Notes under the pieces: model-generated
What the model was told of the DNA's origin: nothing
Seen by the model: only the letters and a program-made list of their open reading frames with translations
Database searches by the model: none
Made by a program: the position numbers and the translations under genes
Assembly: GCF_029962835.1 (NCBI RefSeq)
Contig: NC_080591.1
Location: forward strand, 45,267,501-45,331,500
Source: Magnolia sinica
Lineage: Eukaryota; Streptophyta; Magnoliopsida; Magnoliales; Magnoliaceae
DNA length: 64,000 nt
Reading direction: 5' to 3'
Part shown: piece after piece, positions 5,153 to 63,405 of the stretch
How the letters are laid out: each line of letters begins with the position of its first letter
How positions within the stretch are numbered: the stretch's first letter is position 1

Positions 5153-6427
5153 TTAGCACAGTTCATGGGAACTCACATCACTTGTCTGATTTCACTTTTC
5201 TCATTCATTAGTTCAATGTTTGTGGGTAGCATTGCCGCAAACCCTCACGAGACTACAACTCGTCCACTAGGGGTAACCTAGGGGTTTAAAGGCTTGTTGC
5301 ATGCGCTAAATGCAATCGAGAGCACCTACGAAAGTGGTATAGGTAGGATCTTCTTTTATTTTTCTTTTTGTTATTTTTGCTTATGTTGATTTCTCTCTTG
5401 TGCTAACTCGCTTTTACGTTGAAATTTTTCACGAATTTTGAGAAAGCTTCTTGATTCTCCATCCAGGTATTATCTTTTCATCACTCCTCTTTTATTCTCG
5501 TTGTCCCATATGCCTTGCTTGTTTCTTTCTTCTACATTGAGGGCAATGTAGATTTTAGGTTGGGGGTGGGAGATTAGGGTACCTAATCAGTATTTTCTTG
5601 GTCTTGAGCAACATTTGTGAAAATTTTAAAATTTTTTCTGTTCTATTGAATTCAAAGTGATTTTGAAGGATAGTTGTGATTTTAACATTATAAGATACAT
5701 GATGTTGGTAACTAATGACTCTTGGATTCGGCCTTCTGCTTGATTTCACAGTCAATTTGGCATTGTTAATCCATGATTAGACGTTGTAAACATTGATTGA
5801 GTCATGATTTCACATATCACATCTCGCTTGCACATTAAGTTTTGGTTCGATAACTGAATGATTAACTTGGTAAAAAGAAGAATTAAAAGGCTAAGTCACA
5901 TAATCTTCACCATAGGTTTGCTCCCTATAGGTGTAGATTTGATTCTCCATAGTTGACTTATAAAAAATGAGGCGACGGGTTTTCACCATAGGTTTGCTCC
6001 CTATAGATGAGGATTTGATTCCCTTCCTTGGCGTACTGTTCATAAAGAAAATCAAAAATATAAAGGCTGAAAGGTTAAGCTACCATGCTAGTGTTGGTTG
6101 TCAGGAATTCTGTTGTTAATTACCAATTTTAGCATGAAATTGACAAATTGGATCTTTTAATGATTGTAAGCTGAGATGATACTATACACTCATGGAACTC
6201 AATGGTTACAATTGTTCAAATTAATGGATTAATATTTTAAACTTGATTATGAAGTCTGCTGAGAGCTTGATTCCAAGAGAAAAATTCCACACACCAATCA
6301 TGAATCTTAGAATTTTCACATCTCAGCTATCTGTTCACAAGTCACTTGAGTTTACAGGAATTGTTTTTATTTCTAAAATTATTTTTCGCATGTTTTGCTC
6401 GGGACTAGCAAAATGCTGGTTGGGGGT
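5153..6427 (+). other. Ath1 3' untranslated region
   Basis: Non-coding 3' interior. It includes an unassigned 5214-5345 segment, the family-conserved tract ACATTGAGGGCAATGTAG then GGTTGGGGGTGGGAG (5533-5574), and a direct repeat CACCATAGGTTTGCTCCC at about 5910 and 5984. It ends in the purine tract GGTTGGGGG just before the 3' LTR. Confidence 0.7.
6415..6427 (+). promoter_or_regulatory. Polypurine tract of Ath1
   Basis: CTGGTTGGGGGT abuts the TG start of the 3' LTR. The preceding TAGCAAAATGCTGG is shared with the other Athila copies. This is the expected plus-strand primer. Confidence 0.75.
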
Positions 6428-8590: not shown

Positions 8591-9092
8591 AGGACCTCGT
8601 CCCATCAGTGAGGCATCGCCGAAATGTCCAGCAACCATCGCGGACCTCGCCAGTTCCGCGAGGCCTCGTCGGCTAGCGGGCCGGTTCGGGCCGACACCCC
8701 TAGGGTGTTGTGTGGCCCACTGATGTGTGTTGGGTCAGTTTTAAACCCTCCAAACACACCTCCCCTTCATAACCTACCCCTCCAAGCTCTCCTTTTTCTT
8801 CAAAAACTTTTGTATCTCTCTCAAATCTCTCCTCCATCCACCCATTTCATCATTTTCCTTCAACACACATACCCCTCCACCCTTTACATCGAAACCCACG
8901 TTCCATCTTCTTATTGTTCTCATTTGTTGAGCTTACAAATCCTCTTTGTAGCTCAACATTCCAAAGCCTAACAATCCCTTTCCTATTTTCTTCACTCCTT
9001 CTCATTTTGAACACACAAATACCATTGTGTGCTTCAACAAGCAGTGGGAACCCATTCAACCATCCCATTTTCTTAATTTTTTCCTTCTTTTC
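8591..9092 (+). other. GC-rich then pyrimidine-rich leader before the env-like ORF
   Basis: The first 120 bp are GC-rich with short inverted repeats (GCGAGGCCTCG, GGCCGGTTCGGGCC). They are followed by GTGTTGTGTGGCCCACTG and a long C/T-rich tract. It resembles an LTR U3-to-leader transition, but I see no TG or CA boundary and no second copy. Confidence 0.4.
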
Positions 9093-10340
9093 ATGGCCTT
9101 ATTCGAGCTTGTGACGGCCATCTTCTTGATTTCTATGCTTCTTTCTCTCATAGGGAAGAAGAAGACTCCTATGGATGAGGCCGGGCCTAGTCGCCCTACT
9201 CGTTCAAGGAGGCCTAGAGGCGCCGCTACTAGTGCTAATGTCGATCGGGAGATACGGACCAAGCGGGAACTTGATCCCAAAGCTCCCCTCGAAAGGATTC
9301 TCCTGGCAAACATGTCCCATGGGAGATTTCAGGGCCGTAGTGTCCTCTTTGAAGCTCATGTGGATGAGAGGCTCTTTGGGCAATATCTGGTGATGGATCG
9401 CCTGGTTAAAGCTGGGTGGGGTCCTGTGTTCGAGGGTAAGTACCGTGTAAATGTGGGCACAGTCCGAGCCTTCTACGTCCACATTTAAGAGCCTACGCTG
9501 GAGCCTTTGCAGTTCAAGATCCCAGTGGGTAGAGATTGGGAGGCCACAATTGATGCTGGGTTGATAGTTCGGCTTATGAAGATGCCGCTTGGCGAAGTGC
9601 ATGCAAGCGAGAAAAATTTGAGGAGCACACGTAAAAGGGATCGCCGCACGCGATTCCTTTGTGGACAACTGGTCCACTGGAATCCAAACAACAGCCTCCT
9701 AGAGACCAATATGATGGATGACTTCCGCCTGCTCCATCACATCTTCATGTACAATGTGTATCCTAGGTGGAGCAACTGCAGTGAGTGTACCCGTCTGATG
9801 GTAGATTTCCTGTACCAAGTGGGGTATGAAGAGAAGTTATGCGTGCCTACACACATTCTGCGGCAGATAGTTCTTACCGCACTCTCCACTAGAGCATCTG
9901 ATTCGCTCCTATTCGGTCGACTCATATGCAAGATTGCACGTGAGTTTGGCTATAGACTTGGGGTGGAAGTGCCGGTGCCGACCCATTACATCAACAAAAC
10001 TACTCTCAATCAGATGAAAATTGGGCCACGACAGCGACAAGCCCGAATCGATGAAAGTGAGGACGAGACGGCCAGCGAGGAATATAAAAGCGAGGAGGAA
10101 AGCAGAGAAGAGATAGAGGAAGAATAGGAAGAAGAAGTGGAGGCTCAGGATACGAATGAGAGCTCCCCTCCGACGGCAATAGGGCATGACCCTGATCGGG
10201 CTGCTAGGGAAGCCCGCTTAGCTCGACTTGAGGAGGGCCAGGCTGCCTTGCAACAGGAGATTATCGATGTCCGGGCCCTTGTGAAGCACAAGTTTAAGAA
10301 GGTGACCCGCACCTTGAAAGCTATCCTATGCTGCCTGTAG
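9093..10340 (+). pseudogene. Env-like / plant transposon protein-domain ORF upstream of gag
   Basis: One reading frame runs from ATG 9093 to TAG 10340 (416 codons) with only two internal stops (TAA 9486, TAG 10125). The core includes RFQGRSVLFEAHVDERLFGQ, VNVGTVRAFYVHI and DDFRLLHHIFMYNVYPRW, and resembles what I recall as the 'putative plant transposon protein' domain, often labelled envelope-like in Sireviruses. It has the same layout as the minus-strand ORF at 60199-61203: Arg-rich N-terminus, core, Glu-rich acidic tail. A coiled-coil-like segment (LARLEEGQAALQQEIIDV) follows here. Starting at 9093 gives a hydrophobic N-terminus (ELVTAIFLISMLLSLIG then KKK). Starting at ATG 9171 (MDEAGPSRPTRSRR) matches the second copy better. 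Function unknown. Confidence 0.7.
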
Positions 10341-20708: not shown

Positions 20709-21004
20709 TGTTAAGGGCCAAATATTGCATATTGGACCCCATTTATTACTTGGTTTTATGAACATGATAATGTTTAATGTTCTATTTTAATCATGTTTGT
20801 GTTGCAAGGTGAATTTAAGAGCTTTGAATGAAAAGGATACTAAAAGCATGGATTTAACACTCGAGAATCACCAAAGCCAAGGATGGATCTTAAGAGACCA
20901 AGAATGAAGAATTCACATGCCAAAGATCCAATAAAACTAAGTGAGGAAGAAGGAGCATTGAGGACTTGAAGTGAAGAAAAGAAACCCTAAAACTCTACTT
21001 GATT

Positions 21005-21210
21005 CGACTAGTACATGCCCATCCTCGACCAGTCAAAGGATCCTACTCGACCAGTCGAATGGTCATGCTCAACCAGTTGAAGATTCCTCTACTTGAACTC
21101 CAATGACAAATCATCGAAAATCAGGTCATTCTCGATAAGTTGAGGATGGTCCTTGACCAATCGAAGGTGACCCTCGACCAGTCGAGGATGGTCCATGACC
21201 AGTCGAGGAT
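21005..21210 (+). promoter_or_regulatory. 21-bp-phased inverted-repeat array in A 5' LTR
   Basis: Copies of CGACCAGTCG and close variants. The central CCAGTC-type hexamer starts at 21008, 21029, 21051, 21073 and again at 21136, 21157, 21178, 21199. The last four are exactly 21 bp apart. The array ends about 90 bp before the TATA box. It may be a set of protein sites on one helix face; function not known. Confidence 0.8.
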
Positions 21211-21293
21211 TGCACAAATTTTGCGCGAACTGCGTAAATTTGATGTGGATTTCAAAATTTTCCAACTTAGTGCGAAAGGAAGCGATGCACAAA

Positions 21294-21301
21294 TATAAAT
21301 A
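21294..21301 (+). promoter_or_regulatory. TATA box of A 5' LTR
   Basis: TATAAATA followed by GGACTCCC, in the position shared by all Athila LTRs here. Confidence 0.75.
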
Positions 21302-22179
21302 GGACTCCCCAGGGCATCCCTAGGCATCTTTTAGGGTTTGAGGAGTGGAACAAAAGCATGGAGAAACCGTCACAAAGAAATTTTCTTCCTTTTCCTTAAT
21401 TGGCTTTATGCTTTTCTTAAGAGATTTTAGTTCAATCATGTCTATGGTTGGTTAAACCTCTTAGGTAGGGCTAAGAGGTGAAGCTTGTAGCGTGATTGGG
21501 ATATTTACTTTGTTTTAACTCATGTTTTGTTGAACTCTCTTGGATTCTAGTTTGATTATAAGGAATGTTTTTAATTTTTAATGGTTTGTTGTGATAAATT
21601 ACAATAGATCTGCAATTACTTTGAATATCTTCTTTTTCTTATTTGAGATTGTGAAGTTAGTAAGTCCCATTGTTCACTATCATCCCTTGGGCATGGTACG
21701 ATGATGGAATCCTTCCTAATCTTCACAATTCTCTTATGATTGGTTGTGGGATTGGTAAATCCTGTTGTTTGTCTTGTCTCATTGGCATGGTTAGGTGATC
21801 GCACTTCCAAATCCTCACAACTCTCATCCATTGATGATTAGATCCATGAGAAGTTCATAGATATGACAAATCTCTTCTTACCAATTGGATAAGATAGGAC
21901 TCTGATTCTAGTTGTGTCCTTGAATCAAGCAAGGTAGCATCCTGAGAACTTACAAGTAGATCCTTAGCACCTAGGTCCCACTTTTAAATTCACTAGTTTT
22001 ATTTACTTTAATCACAATTATTCTCTCAATTATTCCAGATTTAGATTTTCATCTCCTTCTAGTTCTACTTCTAGTTACTTTCAGAATTCACACAAGTTTA
22101 GTCCCTGCAGATTCGACCTCATTCTCATCGAGATTATTACTACATCGCGACCCTACACTTGGGATTGTGAACAAGTTTT

Positions 22180-22892: not shown

Positions 22893-24440
22893 ATGCCCTT
22901 ACGGGTAAGGAACCGTACTATGAGATCTTTGAGAAAGGGAGTTTTGGTTGAAAAGTCGATTGACAAGTTGGAAAATCCTCAAATATTTTTGAAAAATCAT
23001 CTGAGAACATGGCTTGAGAACATCGGATTGATGAAGACCCTATACATCACACACCACCTATTAGGATGGTGCGTGATGAGAACGAAGTGCATCGAGTTCC
23101 CTCGGTTCGAACTTTATGAGATTATTTACAACCGATGAGAACAAGTTCACCTTCATGCATAATTCTTCCAAACAATATAGGAAATGTGAACTTCAAGCCT
23201 GAGATAATCCAATTACTTCCTAAGTTCCATGGACTTGATTCAGAAAATCCATATATGCATATTAAAGAATTTGAAGAGATTGTTACAACCATACATTTTA
23301 ATGATATTCCTCCTGATACAATTAGCCTTAAATTATTTCCATTCTCTCTAAAAGAAAAGGCCAAATCATGGTTTCATTCATTAAGGCCTAGATCCATTGT
23401 CACATGGACAAAGATGAGCCAGGACTTCCTTAAAAAGTTCTTCTCGACTCATAAAACCAATGCTCTTAGACAGTAAATAATGAACTTCTCCCAGAAAAAT
23501 AATGAGACTTCCTTTGAATGTTGGGAACGGTTTAAGGACTTACTTCTCGCCTACCCACACCTTGGTTATGAAACTTGGTGGAAAATTGATCTTTTTTATG
23601 ATGGACCCAGTCTAAACATGCGCCAATTCATATAGATGATGTATAATGGAGAGTTCATGGATAAGAACCCAGAAGATGCATGGGATTACTTTAACATGCT
23701 AGCTGAAAATGCTCAATCATGGGACACATCAAACCAAGCTAGTACCCCCAAGGAAATGCCACGAGAGATAGGAATACATGTGCTCAAGAAGGAGGATGAT
23801 ATTAATGTACAGTTGGCAATTCTCACATGAAAATTTAAGGACTTGGAACCTAGGAAGGAATCAACTCAGCCCAAAGCGGTCGTCCGTATGTGGAATTTGT
23901 GAGAGTGAGGTACACCCAATCAAAGATTGTTTTACGATCCCAGCTTTTCAAGAGGTGTTTCACGTTCAAGCAGAAACTACAAATATATATCAATGACCAC
24001 TTAATGCACCAAATTCTGATGTGCACACTCCCTATGAGTGGAACATTAATTGGGGAAATGAACCAACTACAAATGTAACTAATTATCCGCAAGGGCTATT
24101 TAGTGGACTTTCACAAAGGAGAATCCTTGAAGATACATTAGATGCATTTAGGCAAGAGCAACTGTAGGCCATGAATGAGCTTAGAACTTTGCTTGTAAGA
24201 CTTGAGACACAACTGAATGTTAGGGAGACTAGGATCTTTTTGGCCCAATCGCAACCTAACCCAACAAGATAATGTGAGATATGTGATCTCAACTCTGCAA
24301 CTCAGCATTTGGAACATGTTAAGACCATCACCACCTTGGAAAATGGAAAAAAATAGATAAAGAGATTCCAAGGAAGGTTGAGAAACCCAAGGAATCCAAA
24401 AATTCAAAGGATAGTGGTGAATCTAGCAATGCTCCAAATG
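22893..24440 (+). pseudogene. gag: A gag (Athila)
   Basis: The N-terminal part (22893 on) is in mixed frames. From 23040 the family text runs VRDENEVHRVPSVRTL-stop-DYL, then SPSCIILPNNIGNV, IIQLLPKFHGLDSENPYMHI and LKLFPFSLKEKAKSWF. Stops include TAA 23474 and TAG 23633. A frame change near 23830 precedes an intact zinc knuckle, CGICESEVHPIKDC (CX2CX4HX4C). The middle contains EDAWDYFNMLAENAQSWDTS, the family's conserved post-capsid motif. The copy is decayed but retains most of gag. Confidence 0.85.
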
Positions 24441-27689: not shown

Positions 27690-28010
27690 AAATCGGTCGA
27701 TCGAATAGCCGAATCAAATGGGCCGAGTCAAATGGCCGAGTCAAATGGGTCGAGTCGAATAAGCCGAGTCAAATGGTTGAGTCGAATGAGCCGAGTCGAA
27801 TAGGCTGAGTCGAATAGGCCGGGTCGAATGGGCCGAGTCGAATAGGCCAGGTCGAATGGGCCAGTCGAATGGGCCAATTCAATGGGCCGAATCACATGGG
27901 TCGAATCAAATGGGCCGAATCACATGGGCCGAATCAAATGGGCTTAATCAAATGGGCCGATCAAATGGGCCTAATCAAATGGGCTGATTAAATGGGCCAA
28001 GTATATCACA
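27690..28010 (-). repeat. Tandem repeat block in F 3' LTR
   Basis: About twenty imperfect copies of a 14-17-bp unit, GGGCCGAGTCGAAT to GGGCCGAATCAAAT. The matching block of the other LTR is at 38500-38830. Confidence 0.85.
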
Positions 28011-32902: not shown

Positions 32903-33376
32903 TATAAGTGCTATGGTCTCATGCTCCTTTGATTGTCAAATTTTGTTGTGCCAAAACCTCTATCTGTGTCTTGTGTTTGTATGTTGATATATATATATGA
33001 TCAAGACACTGCATCACAATGGTTCAAGACATGTACGGTGCTCTGCTTCAAGAAATGTAAAGTCATGTACTTTAAGCATCAATGTTCAGAGCTACATCAA
33101 TAAGAAGAGTACATTTCAAGACTTAAGTACATTTCAAGACTCAAGTACAACTCAAGATGAAGTTTAAGTTCAAGCTTTCGAAGATCTTAAGATCAAGCTA
33201 CATCGAGATAGAGATCTCAAGCTTCATAAGGTTCAAAGGTCAACCTACATCTTAAAGGATGAAGTTCAATGTTCATACTTCATGTCCCAAGTATGATAGA
33301 CTTTAGATTGACCTTAGGGTGGGTCATTTTGTATACATAATTCAAAATGAATTTATTTATATGAATTGGTCTATTC

Positions 33377-33756
33377 TAAGACTAGTCCTGGACCTTGTTC
33401 GACTAGTCCTAACATTGGTTCGACCAGTCCAAGAAATTCCACGACCAGTCCTAAGTGGTTGAAGATTTTTAGAATTTTTTGGTTACTCTACGACCAGTGC
33501 TGGAGACTGTTCGACTGGTCGTAGGGAGGTCACGACTCGATCTTCGACCAGTCCTAGAACTATGACTCAAACTCTAGCAACCAAACCTAGTTGTCTACAA
33601 CCAGTCTTGGGTCAGCTATGACCAGTCGTAGGTGGTCCACGACCAGTCGTAGACTCCCTACGACCAGTCGTAAAACGGTTTTTAAGATCGCGCTCAAAAA
33701 TTTCAAAATGCCATTGGTTCTACGACCAGTCGAAGGGTTCCTAAGACCAGTTGTAG
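33377..33756 (+). promoter_or_regulatory. 21-bp-phased inverted-repeat array in S
   Basis: CCAGTC-type hexamers start at 33382, 33403, 33424, 33445 (21 bp apart), at 33494, 33515, 33536 (21 bp), at 33601, 33622, 33643, 33664 (21 bp) and at 33726, 33747 (21 bp). Cores are CGACCAGTCG, CGACTAGTCC and similar. The array ends just before the TATA box. Confidence 0.88.
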
Positions 33757-33770
33757 ACGTGATCTTTTCA

Positions 33771-33777
33771 TCTATAA
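33771..33777 (+). promoter_or_regulatory. TATA box of S
   Basis: TATAAAT within ATCTATAAATTGAAC, about 20 bp after the last palindrome. Confidence 0.7.
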
Positions 33778-34858
33778 ATTGAACATGAATTTCAGAGTTT
33801 TTCATCGATTAATTTCAAGAAAATTCAAGCCTCCACTCTGAGATAAGTTTGTTCATTTTAAGCTACACTGTGCATATTTAATATTCTTTTTGTTAGCTTT
33901 TCTTATTTGAATTTATTCCTATATTCCAATCTTATTTGAAAAGAGGAATTATTGTATTCCTTCTTCTTGGAATCAAAATCAAATAGAACTAAGCCCATTT
34001 GATTTAATTTAAAATCAATTAGAACTTAGAACCATTGTGAAGTGAGTATTGGACATTGAGCGTTGATTCGAACATCTATTCCGATTGGTTCATCAGGCTA
34101 CTACAAAAAGGAGAAATCTAGGTATTTTACTTTTATGTAATTTACATTCTTTTGGTTTCTTTTGAGATTGAGCCAAAAAAATCTCATTGTGTTGGTTATC
34201 TGAGGAGAGCCAGAAAACTCAAAAAGTGTGGGTTTTTGGATTGTATAAGCCCAAATTAAAAAGACACAATTGTTAAGGTTTTAGGTGAACCTGTGAAACC
34301 TATTTTGTTAGTGAACGCTAATATCACCTATGTAAGGATATTAGGAGTGGAGTAGTATTCTGTGTGGCTGTTGTGAAACAGTTGGTGTACACACAGGCGA
34401 ACCACTATAATTCTTTGTCTTTTGGTTTGAATGCTTGCTTAAGTTTTATATCTTTTATCATTCAAGTTTGTGGGATGTATGTGTGGATGTGAATGTTGTA
34501 AAATTTACATTTCAAGCAAGTGTGTAGAATGTTGTAATAATTTATATTTAAATTCATGTAATTTATTTCAATTCTATGATATTTATTTATTTCTCTTCAG
34601 ATTGAGTTTTTGATACAATGGACGTTCTAGAAATAAGGTTGTCCTGCCATAAACCCTTGGTTTTTATGGTGTAAGGTTGTCCTTAGAACTGAATTCGTAC
34701 CAACCTCTCAATACTTGTTTATTGAGGTTGATTTTATTTCAGCATTGTGAATTGATTTATTTTATTTGGCTATCTCTTTATTTTATTCCGCTGTTATAAT
34801 TATAATTTGGCATCGTCCTATTCACCCCCCCTCTAGGACGTATAGCTAGGTAGTTTCA

Positions 34859-36919: not shown

Positions 36920-38499
36920 ACTTCTGTCATGCCCCAAACTTGGAAATCGGGCTCATAAAATTCTCGATCGTCGAATCCTGCACTGACAGCCTCTTTAGAC
37001 CCCATCTCGGCTCCTGGCACCCATACACCAGGTTCCAATCCTGGGATTCTACAAGGAGGGTTTCTAACATGATTTTAATTTATAATGTGCATAACCATAA
37101 GCATAACCCACGAACAATAACCATAAGAACACCATAACAAAATTCACTATGATCAAAAACTTTGAGTACAATGCGTATGAAGGGAAATACAATATAGTGA
37201 TAATAACAAAAACTCTTAAAGCTCGACTGTACGCTCCTACTGCGGTGAGGCTATGGCTGCATCATGGCGTCACCTGCATGCATCAATCGTACATAAGCTT
37301 ATAGAAAGCTTAGAGGGTGGTGTAAGTGTGTGTATAATATAAGTGCTCTCAGAATACAATGTCAGAGTAATACGGAATCATGCTAATGAGTACATAAATG
37401 CAATCAGCCGTACCAAGGCTATGCGATGCAAGATATGAATGCTATCGGCCATATCGAGACCATGCGATATGAGATGCAAATCAAGCATGCCAATCCTCAT
37501 CCAAATCTACATATCAATGCGGCTCATCACTAGAGCATCAAATATCAGTACAGTTCTCATTTTGGATAATCATCAAGGTTTACTACACTCCAAATGGTAC
37601 TGCCCCTTTCCCAGGCGTGCATCCCAAGTGAGTGTAAGAAACCTCACTATCCGCCTAGCCAATAGTCTGTCAATACCTATCTGCCATGTCGATAGCAGAC
37701 CCCTTCACGAGCTGGTCAAACTCGGCCTAGCAATGCCCCCTACGCTAGGGCGGGTAAGGCCATACCCCTTTCCAACCAACCACGAAACAGTGGGAGATGC
37801 GGCCTCCTGGTATTCGGCCCTCCTGTGCTATGTATCCACTTGGTTTCAATGTTAGAGTCATCCTCTGGTACCATCGGGTTTAGGGATTTTCACCCAAGGA
37901 CATCTATTGGCGCCTCGATGCTTAGTAATAATATTTTCGGTGTACAATCCTGTCATCCACGATGTGCCTGTAGAGGTCATAGCCCTGATGTCATTAGGGC
38001 GTATAGAAATCATGTCATACAAATACGAAGTGCATGAATCACACTACCACTCATGCAACAATCCTACACATACCGCGCACTCATGAAGGGTAACCCTGCC
38101 TATCAGGGAGCCCATAAACAATTTGCCCGAAGGCTTATGCTATGATCAGTCACTCCTCATATCAAGCATACATATGATGCGTATGAGCATGGATCATGGA
38201 ACTATACTAAACATGTTATGTGGTGATAGATCATGTTCATAACGAAGAGGGGCCTAAACGACCTACACACTACAAGTATGGGCCTATCAATGGGCCCTAG
38301 GGAGTGTTACAATGCAGACATTTAACCACCATTATTCTTATAATGTGGACGTCAAACCATCATTACTCTCAAGATACGGTTGCTAAAAACATCATTACAT
38401 ACATCATGGTGGAATCTCACATCGCTACGGGTCTCATATACATCATATTCGGCCCACACAAAGGCCTTACATACATCTCATTGGGCCTCATATAAATCA

Positions 38500-38830
38500 A
38501 ATGGGTCAATCAAATGGCCGAATCAAATGGGCCGAATTAAATGGGCTGAGTCGAATAGGCCGAGTCGAATGGGCCAAGTTGAATGGGCCGAGTTAAATGG
38601 GCCGAGTCGAATAGGCCGAGTCAAATAAGCCGGGTCGAATGGGCCGAGTCGAATAAGCTGGGTCGAATGGGCCGAGTCAAATATGTCGATTCAATGGGCC
38701 GAATCATATAGGTTGAATCAAATGGGCTGATCAAATAGGCCGAATCACATGGGTTGAATCAAATGGGCCGATCAAATGGGCCGAATCAAATGAGCCGAAT
38801 CAAATGGGCCGATCAAATGGGCCAAGTATA
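38500..38830 (-). repeat. Tandem repeat block in F 5' LTR
   Basis: Same 14-17-bp GGGCCGAGTCGAAT family as 27690-28010, with a different order of variant units. Confidence 0.85.
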
Positions 38831-41472: not shown

Positions 41473-41765
41473 TGTTGATGGTCAAATATTGCATATTGGA
41501 CCCCATTTATTACTTGGTTTTGTGAACATGATAATGTTTAATCTTCTATTTTAATTATGTTTGTGTTGCAAGGTGAATTTAAGAGCTTTGAATGAAAAGG
41601 ATGCTAAAAGCATGGATTTAACACTTAAGAATCACCAAAGACAAGGATGGATCTTATGAAACCAAGAATGAAGAATTCACATATCAAAGATCCAAGAAAA
41701 CTAACTGAGGAAGAAGGAGCATTGAGGACTTGAAGTGAAGAAAAGAAACCCTAAAACTTTGGCTG

Positions 41766-41951
41766 CTTCGACTAGTACAAGCCCATCCTCGACCAGTCGA
41801 AGGATCTTGCTCAACCAATCGAAGATTCCTCGACTCGAACTCCAGCGACAAAATCATCGAAAATCAGGTGATCGTTGACCAGTTGAGGATGGTCCTCGAC
41901 CAGTCGAAGGTGACCCTCGACCAGTTGAGGATGGTCCACGACCAGTCGAGG
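41766..41951 (+). promoter_or_regulatory. 21-bp-phased inverted-repeat array in A 3' LTR
   Basis: Same motif and phase as 21005-21210. The spacing is kept although individual cores have mutated (for example CAACCAATCG). Confidence 0.8.
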
Positions 41952-42036
41952 ATTGCGCAAATTTTATGCGGACTGCATAAATTTGAAATGGATGCTGGAA
42001 ATTTCCAACTTAGTGCGAAAGGAGGCGATGCACAAC

Positions 42037-42044
42037 TATAAATA
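42037..42044 (+). promoter_or_regulatory. TATA box of A 3' LTR
   Basis: TATAAATA followed by GGAGTCCC. Confidence 0.7.
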
Positions 42045-42916
42045 GGAGTCCCTAGGGCATCCCTAGGCATCTTATAGGGTTTGAGGAGTGGAGCAAAAGC
42101 ATGGTGAATCTGTCACCAAGAGTTTTTCTTCCTTTTCCTTAGTTGTTTTTATGTTTTTCTTAAGAGATTTTAGTTCAATCATGTCTATGGTTAGCTAAAC
42201 CTCTTAGGTAGGTCTAAGAGGTGAAGCTTCTAGCGTGATTGGGATGTTGCTTTGTTTTGATTCATGTTTTTTTGAACTCTCTTGGATTCTAGTCTGATTA
42301 TAAGGAATATTTTTAGTTTTTAATGGTCTGTTGTGACAAATTACAATAGATCTGCGATAGCTTTGAATATCGTCTTTTTCTTATTTGAGATTGTGAAGTT
42401 AATTAGTCTTATTGTTCACCATTGTCCCTTAGGCATGGTAGGATGGTGGAATCCTTCCTAATCTTCACAATTCTCTTATGATTGGTTATGGGATTGGTAA
42501 ATCCTATTGTTTACCTTGTCTCCTGGGCATGGTTAGGTGATGGAATCACTTCTAAATCCTCACAACTCTCATTCATTGATGATTAGATCCATAAGAAGTT
42601 CAGAGATATGACAAATCTCTTCTTACCAATTGGATAAGATAGGACTCTAATTCTAGTTGTCCTTGAATCAAGCAAGGTAGCATCCTGAGAACCTACAAGT
42701 GGATCCTTGGCACCCTAGTTCCCACCTTTAAATTCACTAGTCTTAATTACTTTAATTACAATTATTCTCTTAATTATTCTAAATTTTGATTTTCAACTTC
42801 TTCTAATTTTACTTCTAGTTGCTTTCAAAATTCGCACGTGTTTAGTCCTTATGGATTCGACCTTGGTCTCACCGAGATTATTACAACATCGTGACTTACA
42901 CTTGGGGTTGTGAACA

Positions 42917-42921
42917 TCAGC
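42917..42921 (+). other. Right TSD of A (TCAGC)
   Basis: Pairs with TCGGC at 20704-20708. Confidence 0.8.
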
Positions 42922-43977
42922 TAGCCCAAGAAAGTTCGACTGAAAATCCAGCAACATGTTCTTCTAGAACTTGTGAAAGTTCGGCCAGCCGAATCTCTAC
43001 TTCGGCTAGCCTAAGGTTACGTAAATTCTACGCGGACTACGTAAATTTGAGGCGGTTTCCAGATTCTTCCAAGTCGGTGCAAAAGTTGGAGTTGTACAAC
43101 TATAAATAGGAGTCCCTAGGATGTTCTTAAGCATCTTCTAGGGTTTGAGGAGTGGAGCAAAAGGGTGGAGCCACCATCCATGAGTTCTTCTTCTTTTTCT
43201 TTAGTTGGTCTTTCTGTTTTGTTTAAGAGTTCTTAGTTCAATCATGTCTATAGTTGGGTAAACCTCTTAGCTAAGGCTAAGATGTGAAGCTTGTAGCGTG
43301 ATTGGGATGTTTAGTTTGTTTTGATTCATGTTTTGTTGAACACTCTTGGATTTTAGTTCTTTATAAAGGAATATTTTTAGTGTTTAATGGTTTGTTGTCA
43401 CAAATTATAATAAATCTGCAATTGCTTGAAATATCTTCTTTTCCTAAATTGAGATGTGAAATTAAGTCCCATTGTTCACTATCATCCCTTGGGCATGGTA
43501 GGGTGACAGAACCCTTCCTAATCTTCACAATTCTCCCATTATTGGTTGTGGGATTGTTAAATCCTATTGTTTACTTTATCTCCTGGGCATGGTTAGGTGA
43601 TAGAATCACTTCCAAATCCTCACAACTATCATCCATTGATGATTAAATCCATAAGAAGTTCAAAGATCTAACAAATCTCTTCTTACCAATTGGTTAAGAT
43701 AGGACTCTGATTCTAGTTGTGTCCTTGAATTAAGCAAGGTAGCCTCCCAATTGCTACAAGTGGATCCTTGGCACCCTAGTTACCACCTTTAAATTTATAA
43801 GCTTTAAATACCTTATTTAAAATCACTTTCTCAAATATTTTAGATTTAGGTTTACATCTTTTTGTAGTTCTACTTCTAATTACTTTTAGAAATGTACAAG
43901 TTCAGTCCCTGTGGATTCGACCTTGGTCTCACCGAGATTATTACTACATTACGACCCTACACTTGGGGCTGTGAACA
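42922..43977 (+). repeat. B 5' LTR, second part
   Basis: Continues the U3 with TAGCCCAAGAAAG, carries CGGCTAGCC-type palindromes (to 43012), TATA box 43101-43108, and ends GTGAACA before the primer site. With 20437-20708 the LTR is about 1.33 kb. Confidence 0.9.
43101..43108 (+). promoter_or_regulatory. TATA box of B 5' LTR
   Basis: TATAAATA followed by GGAGTCCC. Confidence 0.7.
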
Positions 43978-43983
43978 AGTTTT

Positions 43984-44001
43984 TGGCGCCATTGACGGGG
44001 A
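43984..44001 (+). promoter_or_regulatory. Primer-binding site of B (Asp-tRNA type)
   Basis: TGGCGCCATTGACGGGGA, 16 of 18 positions of the Athila consensus. Confidence 0.85.
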
Positions 44002-47625: not shown

Positions 47626-48124
47626 TGTTAAGGGTTAAATATTGCATATTATCCCCCATTTATTACTTGGTTTTATGAACATGATAATACTTAATGTTCT
47701 ATTTTAATCATGTTTGTGTTGCAAGGTGAATTTAAGAGCTTAGATTGAAAAGGATGCTAAAAGCATAGATTTAATGCTCAAGAATCACCAAAGCTGAGGA
47801 TGGATCTTAGGAGACCAAGATTGAAGAATTAACGTGCCAAAGATCTAAGGAAACCAAGTGAAGAATGAAGAGAATCCACAATTTAAAGTGTCAGTCGGCT
47901 AGCTCGTGTTTTGGTTCGACTAGCCCAAGAATTCAGCTAGCCCAAGAAAGTTCAGCTTAAAATCCAGCAACATGTTCTTCTGGAACTTACAGAAGTTCGG
48001 CTAGCCGAATCTCTGCTTCAGCTAGCCTAAGGTTACGCAAATTCTGCACGGATTGCGTAAATTTGAGGCGGTTTCCGGATTCTTCCAACTCGGTGCAAAA
48101 GTTGGAGTTATACAACTATAAATA
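47626..48124 (+). repeat. B 3' end: forward U3 copy (left arm of palindrome)
   Basis: TGTTAAGGGTTAAATATTGC through the CTAGCC-type palindromes to TATAAATA at 48117-48124. R and U5 are missing; a 27-bp spacer links it to the inverted arm. Confidence 0.9.
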
Positions 48125-48151
48125 GGAGTTCCTAGGCATCTTCTAGGGTTT

Positions 48152-48682
48152 CTTATTTATAATTGTGCAACTTTAATTTTTGCACTGAGTTTGAAGAATC
48201 CGGAAACCGCCTCAAATTTATGGAGTCTGGGCTAGCTGAACCATAGGCTAGCCGAGCTTCGGCTAGCCGACTGACACTCGGGTTAGCAGAAGCAAAGATT
48301 CGGCTAGCTGAACTTCCACAAGTTCTAGAAGAACATGTTGCTAGATTTTCAGCCAAACTTTCTTGGGCTGGCTGAATTCTTGGGCTAGCTGAACCAGAAC
48401 TTGGACTACCCGACAGACACTTCAAATCTTGGATTCTCTTCATTCCTCACTTGGTTTCCTTGGAACTTTCGCACATGAATTCTTCAATCTTGGTCTCATA
48501 AGATCCATCCTTGGCTTTGGTGATTCTTGAGCGTTAAATCTATGCTTTTAGCATCCTTTTCAATCTAAGCTCTTAAATTTACCTTGCAACACAAATATGA
48601 TTAAAATAGAACATTAGGCATTATCATGTTCATAAAATGAAGTAATAAATGGGGGATAATATGCAATATTTGACCCTTAACA
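48152..48682 (-). repeat. B 3' end: inverted U3 copy (right arm of palindrome)
   Basis: The minus strand of this stretch starts TGTTAAGGGTCAAATATTGC at 48682 and follows the forward arm to its TATA box (TTATAAATAA at 48152-48161). The arms are roughly 90% alike, but the inverted arm carries extra CGGCTAGCCG copies, so it derives from a different U3 variant. It ends with CA-3' exactly at the ATTCT TSD. Confidence 0.9.
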
Positions 48683-48687
48683 ATTCT
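48683..48687 (+). other. Right TSD of B (ATTCT)
   Basis: Identical to 20432-20436. Confidence 0.9.
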
Positions 48688-49970: not shown

Positions 49971-51215
49971 TGTTGAGGGTCAAATATTGCATATTATCCC
50001 CCATTTATATCTTGGTTTTATGAACATGATAATGCTTAATGTTCTATTTTACTTATATTTGTGTTGCAAGGTGAATTTTAGAGCTTAGATTGAAAAGGGT
50101 GCTAAAAGCATGGATTTGATGCTCAAGAATCACCAAGGCAAGGGATGGATCTTAGGAGACCAAGATTGAAGAATTCACATGCCAAAGATCCAAGAAAACC
50201 AAGTGAAGAACGAAGAGAATAAAAGATTTGAAGTGAAGAAAAGGAATCCTGAAACATCTTGCCAAAGCGTATTCTGAAACTCTGGGTTATTTTGTGAAAT
50301 TGCACAGAGTGAAGTGTATTTTGGGAAATTACTTAAAGGGAAGTCTATTTAAGCAAACTATGTAAATTTGAGGTGGTTTCTAGAGTTTTCCAACTAGGTG
50401 CGAAAGTTGGAATTCCATAACTATAAATAGGACTCCCTAGGATATTCCTAGGCATCTTCTAGGGTTTAAAGAATGGAGCAAAAGGGTGAAGAAGCCGTTG
50501 CCAAGTGTTTTTCTTCTTCTTCCTTAGTTATTTTAATGTTTTTCTTAAGAGACTTTGGTCCAATCATGTCTATGGTTGGCTAAACCTCTTAGCTAGGGTT
50601 AAGAGGTGAAGCTTGTAGCATGATGGGATGTTTCTCTTGCTTTAATTCATGTTTATGTTGAACCTTCTTTGATTCTAATTTGATTTTAAAAGAATACTTT
50701 CAGTTTTTAATGATTTATTGTGCCTTAAATTATACTAGATTTGCAATAGCTTTGAGTATCTTATTTTCCTTACTTTGAGATTGTGTGATTGGTAAATCCT
50801 GTTGTCGGTCATCGTCTCATGGGCATGGTTTGGTGATGGAATCCCTTCCAAGTATCACAATTCTCCACCTTTGAGAAATAGATCAATGAAAGTTCAGATT
50901 TGGTTTTATTGATATATCTTCCAATTGGATAGGATAGGACTCCAATTTTAATTGTGTGTTATTTGAATCAAGTAAGAGGTCTCCTTGATCACTACAAGTG
51001 GATCCTTGGCACCCTAGTTCCCACCTTTAAATTTTTAGTTTTAATTACTCTAATTATAATTACTCTCTCAAATACTTTAGAATTAGTTTCACATGTTTTT
51101 TTTAGTTTTACTTCTAGCTGCTTTAGAATACTCATGAGATTAGTCCATGTGGATTCGATCTCGGTCTCATCGAGATTATTACTACATCGCAAACCTACAC
51201 TTGGGGTTATGAACA
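49971..51215 (+). repeat. C 3' LTR (about 1245 bp)
   Basis: TGTTGAGGGTC to TTATGAACA. The U3 cassette at 50225-50350 has neither CGACCAGTCG nor CGGCTAGCCG. Instead it has ATTCTGAAACTCTG-type repeats, as in D. TATA box at 50422-50429. Confidence 0.88.
50422..50429 (+). promoter_or_regulatory. TATA box of C 3' LTR
   Basis: TATAAATA followed by GGACTCCC. Confidence 0.7.
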
Positions 51216-53625: not shown

Positions 53626-54867
53626 TGTTGAGTGTGAAATATTGTATTTTTTCTCCTATTTATACCTTGGTTTTATGAACATGATAGTGCTTAATCGATC
53701 TAATTATGAATGTTTTCATATGCGAGGTGATTTTGAGAACTTAAGGTGAAATTGATGCCAAAAGGAAGATTTATGCTCAGAAGATTACTAAATGAAGATT
53801 TTGAGATTTGAAAGTTATTAATGAAGATTTCACATGCCAATGATCTAAGGAAACCAAGTGAGGAATGAAGAGAATCGAAGATTTAAAGTGAAGAGAAAGG
53901 ATCCTGAAAATTGTCATAAAAAAACATATTCCTAAAAATTATCTTGAAAAAATATATTTTGAAATTTCAAATCTAAAAAATGAAAGTTCTAAAAGTCAAT
54001 TTTGAGAACTACACAGAGTGCGTAAATTTGAGGCGGTTTCTAGATTTTTCTAACTTGGTGTGATAGTTGGAGTTCCGTAACTATAAATAGGACTCCCTGG
54101 GATGCTCCAAAGCATCTTTTAGGGTTTGGAAAGGAAGAAAAGGCCTAAACGGGTGTTAACAACGTTCTTTCACTTCAATTTCTTCATGGATTATAGTATA
54201 TCTTTTACGTTTTCTTTTGTTTTTGAGTTAGCTATGACTAGTTAATCTCTTAGCTAGGGCTAAGAGGTGAAGCTATAGTTTATTTTAATGCTTCCTTTTC
54301 TTTGATTCTTGTTTATGTTGAACATCATTGATTTCTATTTTGAATTTAAGCAATATTTTCAGTTTTCTATGATTTATTATGACTCAAATTACAATAGATG
54401 TTGTGATAGCTTTGAATATCTTCTTTTCCTATTATAAGATTGTGAGATTGGTAAAACTCATGATTCACCATCGTCTCCTGGGCATAGTGGATACATGAAT
54501 TCCCTTCCTATCATCACAATACTCCTTCATTAATGACTAGATCAATGAAAAGTTCAAAGATGGATTTAATTGCTTTATCTTCCAATTGGATAGGATAGGA
54601 CTTTGATTCCAGTTGTGTGTGTTGAATCAAGTAAGGTAACATCCTGATAGCTACAAGTGGATCCTTGGTGCTCTAATTTCCTTTTGATTATTGATACTTT
54701 ATTCACAAATCCTCTCAACTATTCCTGAATTCAATTTAGATCTTTTTCTCATTCTAGTTCTAGCTCCAGTTATTTTCAAATTACGTACAAGTTTAGTCTC
54801 TATGGATTCGACCTCGACCTCACTGAGTTATTACTACATCACGACCCTACACTTGGGGTTGTGAACA
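53626..54867 (+). repeat. D/E LTR (1242 bp)
   Basis: TGTTGAGTGTG to GTGAACA, with purine tract on its left and primer site on its right. The U3 cassette matches C (third type). TATA box 54082-54089. Confidence 0.92.
54082..54089 (+). promoter_or_regulatory. TATA box of D/E LTR
   Basis: TATAAATA followed by GGACTCCC. Confidence 0.7.
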
Positions 54868-54891: not shown

Positions 54892-55152
54892 TTACAGCTA
54901 CATTTTTCTGAGATTAATTGGTATTAGAATTAGGTTAAGATTAGGGTTAATTTTATTTTTTTAGGTTAGTTTTTTTTCTGAAATTGTTTTTAGAAACTAA
55001 CATTGTTTTCTCTTTTGTAGGATCTTAACATACCAACTCTAATCCGGTAACCTCTTTCCAATTCTCTCTTTCTTTTCTAGATTTCTTATTTGCTTTAGTT
55101 TTTTGTCTTATAGGCTTTAGTTATTTGGTTCTTGAGGGTTGTACGTGTTTCA
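54892..55152 (+). other. E leader
   Basis: Short T-rich leader with one TTTTTAGAAACTAAC and the splice-acceptor-like CTTTTGTAGG (55013-55022) followed by ATCTTAACATA. Confidence 0.65.
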
Positions 55153-55913
55153 TGCCCAATTGGGTTTATGATAACACTCTTTGTCTCTTGAGTGAAGGAG
55201 GATTAGTCGAAGGGTTGCTTATCCATCAAAGGATTAGACACCACTTGAGATCCTCTCAATTAATTGAAGTAATAGCTTCAAATCAACCTCAACCTCTAGT
55301 TGAGGAGGTTCAAGATGAGAATGAGGTGCATAATGCTCCCCCTCCTTGTATTTTTCGAGATTATTTACAACTGGCAGGAGTGAGTACACCTTCCTGCATG
55401 GTATTTCCACTTAATGCAGAAAACCTGGATGTTAAACTTGGAGTGATACAACTCCTTCCTAAATTCCATGGATTAGACTCTGAAAGTCCATACTTGCACA
55501 TCAAAGAGTTTGATGAGATAGACACCACATTACACTTTTCAAACGTGTTTGAGGACATAGTGCAACTCAAATTGTTTCCCTTTTCACTGAAGGAGAAGGC
55601 TAAGACATGGATGTACTCCTTAAAGCCACGATCTATTGGCACATGGGCTGAGATGACTAGGGAATTTCTCAAAAAGTTTTTCTTGTTTCATAAAACTAGC
55701 ACTAAGGAAGGCAATCATGAACTTTGCCCAGAAAGAGGAAATGACCTTCTTCCAATGCTAGGAAAGGTTCAAAGATCTCACAAAATCCTGTCCACATCAT
55801 GGCTACGAAATTTTGTGGAAAATAAGCTTTTTCTATAATGAATTAACTTCACCAATGCACCAATTTGTAGAGATGATATGTAACAATGAATTGATGAACA
55901 AGGAGGCCGATGA
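55153..55913 (+). pseudogene. gag: E gag (Athila), truncated by an F-family LTR
   Basis: The first in-frame ATG is near 55153 (MPNWVYDN). The reading continues QDENEVHNAPPPCIFRDYLQ, VIQLLPKFHGLDSESPYLHI, LKLFPFSLKEKAKTWMYSLK and TREFLKKFFLFHKTSTK, then a frame change near 55700. In another frame it ends with ELTSPMHQFVEMICNNELMN and KEADD. It stops at 55913 where TGTCACGCCCC begins. This is the best-kept Athila capsid in the window. Confidence 0.87.
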
Positions 55914-57739: not shown

Positions 57740-58795
57740 TGAAACGGCCGAGCTATATGTCCTAGAGGGGGGTGAACAGGACTATGCCAAATTAAAACTT
57801 AAAAGCAAAATTTAAATAAATTAAATACAGATAGTAATAAACAATCCCACAATGCTGAATTTAAAGACAACCTCAAAAGTACGAGTATTGAGAGGTTGAT
57901 ACAGATGTTGTTCTAAGGACAACCTTACACCATAAAAACCAAGGGTTTATGGTAGGACAACCTTACTAGAACGGTTTACATATTAAAAACTCAAACTTGA
58001 TACAGATGAGTAAATACATAAATAAACAGCAAGAAAGGAAATCTAATCTATTACAACATTCCCACACATCCACATAAAGATTACATCATTCTCCACAAAT
58101 GTAATAAGAAAAATTACAATCATCCACAAAAAGAAATAAACATTCAAACCACAAGACAGAGAATTATAGTGGTTCGCTTAGGTGTACACCAACTGTTTAG
58201 AAAAATAGCCACACAACTACTCCACTCCTAATATCCTCACACAGTAGATATTAGTGTTCACTATGAAAATAGGTTTTTCTAGGTTCACCTAAAACCCTCA
58301 CAATTGTGTCTTTCGAGTGGGCTTACATAATTGAAAAACCCTACACTCTGAGTTTTCTGGATCACCTCAAACAAACCACAATAGAGATTTTTCTGGCTCA
58401 ATCTCAATGAAATTCAAAACAAAGGAATTTACAAAAACTATAAAATACCTGGATATTCTCCTTTAGATGCAGCCTGGAAGAACTAAGTTGGAGTAGAAGT
58501 TCAACATTGAAGTTCAATGTCCAAACTCACTTATGAAATGGTTTTAAGTTCCAAATTGATTTTAGATTTAAAGTACCTTGGGCTAACTAGATTTGATGTT
58601 GATTCCAAGAAATGGGAATACTACAATCCCTCTTTCAAATAAAATTGGAATGCAAAAATTCAAAATCAAATGTAAAGAAAGCTATTAAAAGAGAATATTA
58701 AATGAGCACAATATAGCTTAAAATAAGGACTAACTTATCTCTTAGAGTGACGTATTAATTTATCTTGAATTTAATGAAAAACTCTTAAATTCGTC

Positions 58796-58806
58796 ATCTA
58801 TTTATA
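58796..58806 (-). promoter_or_regulatory. TATA box of H LTR
   Basis: Minus-strand CTTATAAATAG, about 20 bp after the last palindrome, in the same place as in S. Confidence 0.7.
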
Positions 58807-58823
58807 AGTGAAGAAATCACATT

Positions 58824-59166
58824 CACGACTGGTCCTGTGGACACTACGACTGGTCGTAGGATCAACTGATTTTTGAAATTTTGTGCGCGATAAGATAAAG
58901 CCGTTCGGGACCTTCACGACTGGTCGTGACCTGTCCATGATTGGTCGTGTGGAACTCAAAATAGTTGTTGAACTTTGAGTCATAGCTGCGGGACTAGTCG
59001 TGAACGAGTCGAGCACTGTTCACACGAGCAGTCAAGCAGTCTCCAGGACTGGTCATGGCTTAACAAAAATTTCAAAATTTTTAAACAAAATTAGGACTGG
59101 TCGAGGAATTTCTTGGATTGGTCGAGCCAGTGCTAGGACTAGTTGAACAGAGTCCAGGACTAGTTG
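58824..59166 (-). promoter_or_regulatory. 21-bp-phased inverted-repeat array in H LTR
   Basis: On the plus strand CTGGTC-type hexamers start at 58829 and 58850 (21 bp), 58920 and 58941 (21 bp), and 59097, 59118, 59139, 59160 (each 21 bp). Cores CGACTGGTCG, GGACTAGTCG and similar. Confidence 0.87.
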
Positions 59167-59672
59167 AGAAACAATCTGATCACTTATAAAATGATCTAAT
59201 TGAATTATGTATTCAAAATGACCTACCTTAAGGTCAATCTAAGGTCATTCATACCTTAAAAGTAATGTATGAACATTGAGCTTCTTTTTCTTTAAGTTGA
59301 TAGTCGTTCTTTGAAGTTGGTGAAGCTTGAGATCTTGTCATAGGATGAAGCTTGACTTACGACTCTTGAAGCTTGAATTGACTAACATTAAAGCTTGAAG
59401 TTGAGTATTAAAGTCTAGGAACATTGTCTTGACTTGTACGAAGCTTTGAACTTTTTGAACTCTTGAATCTTAAAAGCTTGAATTCACTATTGACGTTGTA
59501 CATAAACATGAACTAGTATATTTGCCTTTCAAGGTCTTAAACACAAGACCCTTGTTCTTGAGAGATGCACAGACTTCATTATGTAGATGAGCTACACAAG
59601 ACACAGATTCCAAGAGAGGTTTTGGCACTACAAAATTTGACAATATAGGAGCTAGAAACCGTACCACTTACA

Positions 59673-61203: not shown

Positions 61204-61660
61204 TTGCAACTAAGAATACAAGAAATCAAGAGGTTGCAAAAGATGTAGAGAGGGGTTTCTCTATATCAGATTTTAGAGAAGAAAACTCTAAAAACCACAA
61301 TGAAACAAGAAATAAATCACTCCAAGTATGAAAATGAGGTGATATGAACTTGAATCTATAAGAAAAATAGAATTAACGCACTAACCTTGAAGATCTAGAA
61401 TGGTGGGTACGACCGGTCATGCTTAGACCCGTTGGAGAAGAAGTACAAATGAGGAAGAAAAGGGTTTTTCCCCCAAATTAAAGTGAAATTTGCAATTCCA
61501 TGACTGGTCGAGTACGTGCTCGACCGGTCGTGCCACGATTGGTCGAGCATGTACTCGACTAGTCATGCACAGCAAAAAATTTACATTTTTCATTAAAATT
61601 TAAAATTTAAATATACAAACTAACAAGTATATACATTATAATACAAAAATGCAAGAATAA
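61204..61660 (-). promoter_or_regulatory. Intergenic region between H pol and env-like ORF, with palindromes
   Basis: Palindromes CGACCGGTCG, CGACTGGTCG, CGATTGGTCG and CGACTAGTCA occur at plus positions 61411, 61502, 61521, 61536 and 61556 (starts approximate to 1-2 bp). On the minus strand a pyrimidine-rich TATTTTTCTTATAG motif (about 61357-61370) could be a 3' splice site ahead of the env-like ATG. An internal promoter or a spliced subgenomic RNA are both possible. Confidence 0.55.
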
Positions 61661-62152: not shown

Positions 62153-63405
62153 TTAAAGACCCAGATTAGCTAAACTTACGACATAACGCATAATCCGCTT
62201 AACAGCAGTTAAATGTGACACTTTAGGGTTAGATTGATATCTAACACAAATTCCTATACTAAATGCAATATCAGGTCGGCTTGCAGTTAAATACAACAAA
62301 TTACCTATCATACTGCGACATAATTCAGGATCCACTTTCTTACCTATAGAGTCCTTTGAGAGTTTTAAAGTCGTACTCATAGGAGTATCAAAAGTTTTCC
62401 CATTCTCAAATCTGAACTTTTTAACTAAGTTCAAAGCATATTTGGTTTGAGAGATGAAGAAACCATCAGGTTGCTCTTTAACTTGCAACCCGAGAAAATA
62501 ATTCAATTCCCCAACCATGCTCATTTCGAACTTAAATTTCATAAGATCTGCAAACTCAACAGTCATGTTAGCACAGGTAGATCCATAAATAATATCATCA
62601 ATATAAATCTGTATAATTAAAATGTGATCATTATGTTTCTTTACAAATAAAGTTTTATCAACACTTCCCATTATAAAATTATGACTTAGTAAAAACTTAG
62701 TCAATTTTTCATACCATGCCCTGGGAGGTTGTTTTAAATTGTAGAGAGCCTTTTTTAGATGATAGACATGATCAGTATTCTTAGGGTCTTCAAAACCCAT
62801 TGGTTGTTCAACATACACTTCTTCATGTAAATCGCCATTTAAAAAAACACTCTTTACGTCCATCTGATAAATTTTGAATTTTCTAAAGCAAGCAATGGAT
62901 ATAAATAGTCTAATTGATTCAAGACGAGCTACTGGGGCAAAGGTTTCCTCATAATCGATGCCTTCAATTTGAGTGTACCCTTATACAACCAGTCTAGACT
63001 TGTTTCTAATTATATTACCAAGTTCATCAGACTTATTTTTAAAAATCCACTTAGTTCTGATAATATGTTTATCTTTTGCCTAGGAACTAAGTACCAAACA
63101 TCATTTCTAACAAATTGATTAAGCTCTTCTTGCATCACAACTATCCAGTTTTCGTCAATAAGAGCTTCTTTTATGTTAGCTGGTTCTATCTGAGATGTAA
63201 AGCACACGTAGTTACACACATCTTTTAGTTGTCTATGGGTACGCACACCAGTGAGAGGGTTTCCAAGAATTTGATTAGTTGGATGATCTTTAACAGTTCT
63301 CAGTTCAGAGTTGTTTTGACTTAATGAAGAATCTGGTTTATCAATTAGAAGTACATCATTATCTGAACTAGAGACAGGTGTATTCAAGTGATTGTTAATA
63401 ACCAC
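62153..63405 (-). pseudogene. pol: H reverse transcriptase (Ty1/copia, Sirevirus type)
   Basis: The N-terminal part (63405-63010) has NQILGNPLTGVRTHRQLKDV and NWIVVMQEELNQFVRNDVWY, then a frame change. The main ORF (62863-62153, 237 aa) starts [20 protein letters not shown] and has the copia palm motif YIDD at its residues 87-90 ([12 protein letters not shown]), then [14 protein letters not shown] and [17 protein letters not shown]. The bases between (62864-63009) still read [18 protein letters not shown] in pieces. This is the best-preserved enzyme segment in the window. Confidence 0.92.

Follow-up and report, generated by a model that had tools for sequence, protein, structure and literature searches.

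Phased palindromes and a conserved box in LTRs of Sirevirus, other Copia and Ty3-type retrotransposons of Magnolia sinica

LTR retrotransposons nested in a 64,000-nucleotide stretch of a 1.84-Gb genome (C19:45267501-45331500, here called the window) and their relatives in the same genome carry arrays of palindromes, many of them in 21-bp steps, together with an 18-bp box in the central gap of the arrays. This combination is found in Sireviruses, in a non-Sirevirus Copia and in Ty3 elements. The phased palindromes had been pointed out in a preliminary description, which concerned one Sirevirus solo LTR and a Ty3/gypsy Athila of the same nest; the observation is confirmed and is wider than first noted. 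Judged from sequence comparisons, promoter exchange between the non-Sirevirus Copia and the Ty3 elements is well supported, and the array-box module of the Sireviruses has likely been exchanged as well.

Palindrome arrays, their phase and the central box

The solo LTR (here named S) is 1956 bp long (32903..34858, forward strand), with ends placed by comparison with the relative L009. It begins with TA where L009 has TG, and its flanks, ACTAT and ACTGC, form a poor target-site duplication (three of five bases). Upstream of its TATA box (33773..33778, forward strand) lie 13 CGACYRGTCG-like palindromes with at most two mismatches (33379..33753, forward strand), which start at 33379, 33400, 33421, 33442, 33491, 33512, 33545, 33598, 33619, 33640, 33661, 33723 and 33744; an extra two-mismatch match at 33504 overlaps the site at 33512 and was left out of the count. 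Thirteen sites had also been reported before, and 12 of those listed fit CGACYRGTCG at up to two mismatches. The figure itself survives by luck, since the listed site at 33536 (CGACTCGATC) has four mismatches and fails, and a good site at 33545 (CGACCAGTCC, one mismatch) had been overlooked. The array was reported to end about 20 bp short of the TATA box, which is borne out: 19 bases separate the end of the last site (33753) from the start of TATAAA (33773). In the corrected list, 8 of the 12 consecutive steps are exactly 21 bp; when non-overlapping sites were placed at random 20,000 times, such steps averaged 0.33 and never exceeded 3.

The motif and its phase also occur well beyond S. The whole window contains CGACYRGTCG (at most one mismatch) 29 times versus 1.34 ± 1.21 times in 100 dinucleotide shuffles. 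Genome-wide, the pattern CGACCAGTCG-N4..34-CGACCAGTCG yielded 16,165 exact pairs (8027 + 8138), and the backwards pattern yielded 1 + 0. Spacing among the first 100 listed pairs, which come from a single chromosome and some of them from one array, was 21 in 43, 42 in 18, 20 in 15, 35 in 7 and another value in 17. We also sampled 20 regions of 10 kb (200 kb) at round coordinates on 15 of the 127 contigs, a spread-out and not a random sample. The motif occurred in them 56 times (at most one mismatch) and 11 other palindromes of the same half-site letters 3 to 11 times; 22 of the 43 consecutive spacings of up to 130 bp were 21 bp (31 of 67 at up to two mismatches). A de novo scan of the window and the 20 sampled regions for palindrome clusters of any core, with half-sites holding at least two G/C, gave 19 rows, namely 8 of CGACNNGTCG, 2 of GGACNNGTCC (the same arrays) and 9 others, of which two are one simple repeat and four are one locus. 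Only CGACNNGTCG and its variant GGACNNGTCC recurred at separate loci, and the scan gave no rows on one shuffle of those sequences.

Within the window, the LTR of a second Sirevirus, S2, is about 70 to 74% identical to S (aligned part 57740..59379, reverse strand) and has an array at 58826..59166 (reverse strand) with spacings largely as in S. Two Ty3-type LTRs on the forward strand carry the same core. In A1 (20709..22173; TATA at 21294), the sites at 21005-21205 follow each other in steps of 21 and 22, then 21 and 21 bp; in A2 (41473..42916; TATA at 42037), the sites at 41769-41948 have steps of 21 and 22, then 21, 21 and 21 bp. The earlier claim that the Ty3 element resembles S in core, place and phase thus stands for the core and the 21-bp steps, and "same place" is true only in the sense of upstream of TATA: the distance from the last site to TATA is 19 bp in S versus 88 bp in the Ty3-type copies of the window with a CGAC core.

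Other Ty3-type LTRs bear a variant core, CGGCYRGCCG, which is close to a citrus Sirevirus motif given in Table 3 of PMC2829016. These LTRs span 42917-43977, 47626-48151 and 48143-48684. The first, A5, is truncated (forward strand) and has palindromes at 42982 and 43003, that is, one 21-bp step. A6 (sites at 47896..48028, forward strand; TATA at 48117) has two such steps in the series 21, 17, 64 and 21, and A7 (sites at 48229..48391, reverse strand; steps of 17, 64, 41, 15 and 16) has none. Two further related Ty3-type LTRs on the forward strand are without array or box: A3 (49971..51215), which has kept the core promoter (TATA at 50422), and A4 (53626..54867). A degenerate array or box in A3 and A4 was considered and rejected after motif and box searches of both gave no match.

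When arrays from different families were compared, the central gap proved to hold a conserved string, GACTCRAANTCYAGCRAC. In S, this box (GACTCAAACTCTAGCAAC; 33564..33581, forward strand) begins 19 bp past 33545 and 34 bp ahead of 33598, where the neighbouring palindromes start. In S2, it reads GACTCAAAGTTCAACAAC with two mismatches (58964..58981, reverse strand). It lies at 21090-21107 in A1 (four mismatches), at 41832-41849 in A2 (none), at 42938-42955 in A5 (one), at 47954-47971 in A6 (three) and at 48337-48354 in A7 (two). Across 13 arrays, the box has 0 to 4 mismatches (4 in A1 and L026), and in 12 of the 13 it starts 19 to 21 bp after the preceding palindrome start; the exception, L032, has no site with up to two mismatches at that position. 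The distance from the box to the next palindrome is 33 to 34 bp in S, S2, L022, L026 and L029, and 43 to 44 bp in A2, A5, A6, A7, L014, L018 and L032; in A1, the next qualifying palindrome is 64 from the box. Assigning 44 to Ty3 and 34 to Sireviruses was rejected, as the Sirevirus L032 has 44. A5 to A7 were found via the box and are therefore no test of it. The placement also agrees in L033 (both LTRs) and L034 to L037, but these were retrieved through their relationship to L014 and A1 and lend the box no independent support.

With a matrix built from the boxes of the Sireviruses S, S2, L022, L026 and L029, the box was recovered at the expected place in the Ty3 LTRs A2 and A1, where 0 and 6 of 1000 shuffles, respectively, scored as well, the box having been chosen after A1, A2 and the Sirevirus arrays had been seen. 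Genome-wide, GACTCRAANTCCAGCRAC followed after 6 to 36 bases by CGACCAGTCG gave 771 exact pairs with all superfamilies pooled (364 + 407), and the reversed order gave 0 + 0. Start-to-start distance in the first 100 listed pairs was 34 in 75, 44 in 11, 54 in 6 and 33, 42, 43 or 45 in the remaining 8. Such ten-base steps suggest whole helical turns.

Elements that carry the arrays

As a solo LTR, S itself holds no gag or reverse transcriptase, and its assignment to the Sireviruses (Ty1/copia), made in the preliminary description, is supported through its relatives. A first look at the genome gave 5046 candidates, of which 40 were scored; the S array was matched at 91 to 100% in all 40, and a fragment of 62 bases matched at 79% in one more row. 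Of four near-complete relatives retrieved, L009 was scanned for domains; it has a Copia gag (Retrotran_gag_2), a Pol beta-barrel, gag-pre-integrase, SH3_retrovirus and RVT_2. S2 has a Copia-type reverse transcriptase piece (RVT_2; 62156..62980, reverse strand). Two strings given as Sirevirus marks in the accessible parts of PMC2829016 were also found. The 12-mer of the polypurine tract (PPT) attachment, AGGGGGAG-AT-TG, is present at the 3' LTR in L009, L022 and L032, and the 5' junction CA-A(T/G)TGG-TATCAGAGC is present in L009 (as CA-AGTGG-TATCAGAGC) and L029. The junction also occurs in L018, classed as non-Sirevirus, and is therefore not diagnostic alone. L032 had been considered as a Ty3 element, which was rejected on account of its Sirevirus PPT 12-mer.

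A Sirevirus feature seen here is the presence of palindromes in the LTR close upstream of TATA, plus linker copies ahead of an envelope-like gene. The internal (linker) array of S2 (61410..61565, reverse strand; spacings of 91, 20, 15 and 20) lies upstream of frames that match env-like open reading frames of L009. Linker arrays of three Sireviruses (L024 9031-9176, L029 224-369 and window 61410-61565) share the same core, with spacings of 20/15/20 and about 90, not 21. Elsewhere in the window, a forward frame at 9489-10124 gave a sub-threshold match to Transposase_32 (PF20167) and shares about 31% identity with the L009 env-like frame.

The non-Sirevirus Copia group comprises L033, L018 and L014, all with array and box. 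L033 encodes RVT_2, an integrase (rve) and gag_2; its LTRs lie 4.6 kb apart (LTR match of 565 bp), and both contain arrays. The Sirevirus PPT string AGGGGGAG is absent from its coding strand, and its reverse transcriptase is 32% identical to that of S2, compared to 70 to 89% for Sirevirus copies. L018 is a Copia by its gag (gag_2, Pol_BBD), and L014 was placed in Copia by LTR similarity only. The L014 type is abundant, with 4254 first-look candidates, of which 40 were scored. An assignment of the L018 and L014 group to Ty3 was rejected in view of the L018 gag and the L033 domains. The L018 LTR is interrupted by an element at 2104-9011 with a TCTAA target-site duplication on either side. L030 has three CGGCYRGCCG-like sites at 8000-8101, with a 21-bp step between the second and the third; a Sirevirus-like gag was matched in the same region, and this may be a CGGC-core array inside a Copia element.

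That the array-bearing A-type and L034 elements belong to the Ty3 superfamily is supported by gag sequences. A piece of Ty3 gag (PF03732) lies downstream of A1 (23120-23473), and the leader after A1 is shared with A5 and A4; A5 has a TGGCGCC primer site at 43984, and A4 has the TGGCGCC primer site at 54874 and a PF03732 gag at 55029-55835. L034 combines in a single copy steps of 21, 22, 64, 21, 21 and 21, the box, TATA, TTTTTGGCGCCATTG (with the TGGCGCC primer site) and a Ty3 gag that is 60% identical to the A4 gag. L035 to L037 have L034-like steps, with no gag within the 4.1 kb fetched. A2, A3 and A5 to A7 were put in Ty3 by LTR similarity only, A2 on the basis of 88% identity to A1. The preliminary classification as Ty3/gypsy Athila holds with regard to Ty3. 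A Ty3-type gag and the TGGCGCC primer site were observed, and the name Athila is unproven. Athila ORF-1 (pfam03078), which some Athila elements have, was absent among the 61 reading frames of at least 95 aa in the window, and no name among those listed in a gag search (47 proteins) said Athila. We take the TGGCGCC primer site to be linked to tRNA-Asp and Athila.

Two other repeats were noted in the window. An LTR pair at 1-1850 and 6734-8592 is 97% identical, with TGGCGCC at 1855 and a Ty3 gag at 2460-3059, and a 14-bp unit (GCCGAGTCAAATGG-like) forms arrays at 27708-28002 and 38495-38823, in equivalent positions of an internal segment that is duplicated.

Exchange, convergence and other readings

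Promoters were compared over a segment reaching from 86 bases upstream of TATA to 30 bases downstream of it, which lies beyond the palindromes in the Ty3 and non-Sirevirus Copia LTRs, with shuffles that keep single-base make-up only. Between Ty3 and Copia, no shuffle in 1000 was as good for six of seven pairs, with values versus the shuffle maximum of 57 versus 27 (A3-L033), 52 versus 28 (A2-L033), 51 versus 23 (A2-L018), 47 versus 28 (A5-L018), 40 versus 33 (A3-L014) and 37 versus 29 (A4-L033); for the seventh, L034-L014 (value of 28), 1 of 1000 was as good. With TATA masked, four of the seven (A3-L033, A4-L033, A2-L018 and A5-L018) remained at 0 of 1000, and A2-L033 (5), A3-L014 (35) and L034-L014 (105 of 1000) were weaker. 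No such similarity was seen for the core promoter of the Sirevirus S, as 152 of 1000 shuffles were as good in comparison with A2, 81 with A3 and 284 with L033; for the Sirevirus L032 versus the Ty3 LTR A2, 39 of 1000 were as good.

The arrays themselves were compared with palindromes masked. Four of ten Sirevirus-Ty3 pairs (S-A2, S2-A2, L029-A2 and L022-A2) beat all 300 shuffles, and in S2-A2 the best stretch lies outside the box; the five A1 pairs (22 to 148 of 300 shuffles as good) and L026-A2 (102 of 300) fell short of this. A 116-bp stretch, in part palindrome, matches at 72% between the LTR of the Sirevirus L032 and A2. A test for covariation of the two palindrome half-sites inside arrays was negative. 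The preliminary description had left the choice between exchange and convergence undecided. With regard to the test that it proposed, shared flanks or a shared core only, sharing thus extends to the second box at a near-fixed offset and to the core promoter of Copia and Ty3, and it does not extend to the TATA region of S and Ty3. The shared box and the palindrome-free core promoter common to Copia and Ty3 favour exchange or common descent of the module. Since the Sirevirus S and Ty3 share array and box, not the TATA region, convergence is weakened only.

On balance, we regard it as probable that the upstream module in the U3 of S binds host factors and that it is present in Ty3 and other Copia elements through exchange of LTR control sequences. 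Counting against this reading are the difference between S and Ty3 near TATA, the Ty3-Copia pairs that weaken with TATA masked, the mixed array comparisons, the negative half-site test and the steps other than 21 bp in A7 and the Sirevirus linker arrays. In this module, 10-bp sites with dyad symmetry would follow each other at intervals of about two helical turns, with one conserved 18-bp box in their midst. A host DNA-binding dimer may sit at site after site along the same helix face, with a second factor at the box; cooperative binding would fit the dyads, the two-turn step and the near-fixed box. The bound factors would then drive, or repress, the TATA promoter. Sireviruses, Ty3 elements and non-Sirevirus Copia would have the module in common due to exchange of LTR control sequences between elements, for which template switching between co-packaged RNAs or LTR-LTR recombination are candidate routes.

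Unrelated LTRs could instead have acquired, each independently, binding sites for one set of abundant host factors, with cooperating factors setting the spacing. The lack of a common core promoter between the Sirevirus S and Ty3 LTRs would agree with such convergence, as would the many different palindromes that published Sireviruses bear according to the accessible parts of PMC2829016. Moreover, the core varies among Ty3 subfamilies (CGAC in A1 and A2, CGGC in A5 to A7) and the 21-bp step recurs in A5 and A6, which makes selection on spacing plausible. An 18-bp box at near-constant offset in all three groups, however, exceeds what a core-only account predicts, and so does a palindrome-free core promoter common to Copia and Ty3; we consider convergence rather unlikely. 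Multiplication of neutral 21-bp minisatellite units via slippage, kept by gene conversion, would agree with the likeness of certain spacers, e.g., in A2, and with the 21-bp tandem units that Tandem Repeats Finder detects in A1, A2 and S. Yet core and step persist while spacers differ, S and S2 largely keep their spacing at about 70% identity, each array has one box at a near-fixed offset and the same structure stands upstream of TATA in three groups, all of which renders this origin very improbable.

The arrays might also act in RNA, where U3 hairpins of the transcribed 3' LTR would serve packaging or dimerisation, or give rise to small RNAs that silence the element. A role in a small-RNA response has reportedly been proposed for maize Sirevirus palindromes in a 2016 paper, which we count in favor of this possibility. 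The 380-nt array folds at -134.7 kcal/mol compared to -100.5 ± 6.1 kcal/mol for 100 shuffles (z = -5.6), but any palindrome array folds well, so that the folding score is not independent evidence. The 21-bp DNA phase, the box distances ten apart (34 and 44) and the site upstream of TATA fit a protein on DNA better, and an RNA role appears distinctly improbable to us.

Relation to known systems and meaning

Palindrome-rich regions upstream of TATA had been mentioned in the preliminary description as reported for maize Sireviruses. The lead was right, as the accessible parts of PMC2829016 (Bousios et al. 2010) describe repeated motifs (RM) of Sireviruses. Like the arrays presented here, RM show dyad symmetry, are present in many copies and lie in the upper LTR half ahead of a conserved TATA; they occur again upstream of the envelope-like gene, which is matched here by LTR and linker copies. 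They differ in core: the CGG-CCG signature, present in 12 of 13 published elements (the exception being Tnd-1), is not that of the palindromes here, whose core is CGACYRGTCG (CGAC-YR-GTCG). Neither a 21-bp phase nor a second box is mentioned in those parts of PMC2829016, and RM are described there as Sirevirus-specific and absent in classic copia, in contrast to the non-Sirevirus Copia and Ty3 elements that carry them here. Among the papers listed in literature searches on palindromes with Sirevirus, Athila, 21 bp and exchange or convergent sites, none describes the module in its title or at the start of its abstract. Within the literature searched, the box, the phase and the presence in Ty3 and other Copia with shared promoter sequence appear new.

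Two further systems invite comparison. ONSEN-like Copia LTRs carry clusters of heat-response elements; there too, host-factor sites were gained in U3 and tie the element to a host signal, but in one lineage and for a known factor, whereas the module here crosses superfamilies and its factor is putative. VANDAL transposons carry VANC target motifs, which likewise are many short non-coding motifs in a mobile element, changing in concert between families. The VANC protein, however, is encoded by the DNA transposon, whereas here a host factor would be involved and not one encoded by the element.

Plant LTR promoters are usually regarded as lineage-bound and quick to diverge. We see an even chance that LTR control regions are exchangeable cassettes, moved with or without the core promoter among Sirevirus, other Copia and Ty3 elements of one genome, in which arrays switch their core together (CGAC to CGGC) while the box is kept, as are the 21-bp steps in two of three such LTRs. 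A concerted core switch with the box retained is what one would expect of elements that follow or evade a sequence-specific regulator of the host. If true, a cassette common to two superfamilies would account for unrelated elements being subject to a single host control. The module may serve as bait for the factor that binds Sirevirus palindromes, which the accessible parts of PMC2829016 leave open, and promoter exchange between superfamilies becomes directly testable by LTR alignments over many genomes. Taken together, the data suggest that control modules can pass between distantly related mobile elements.
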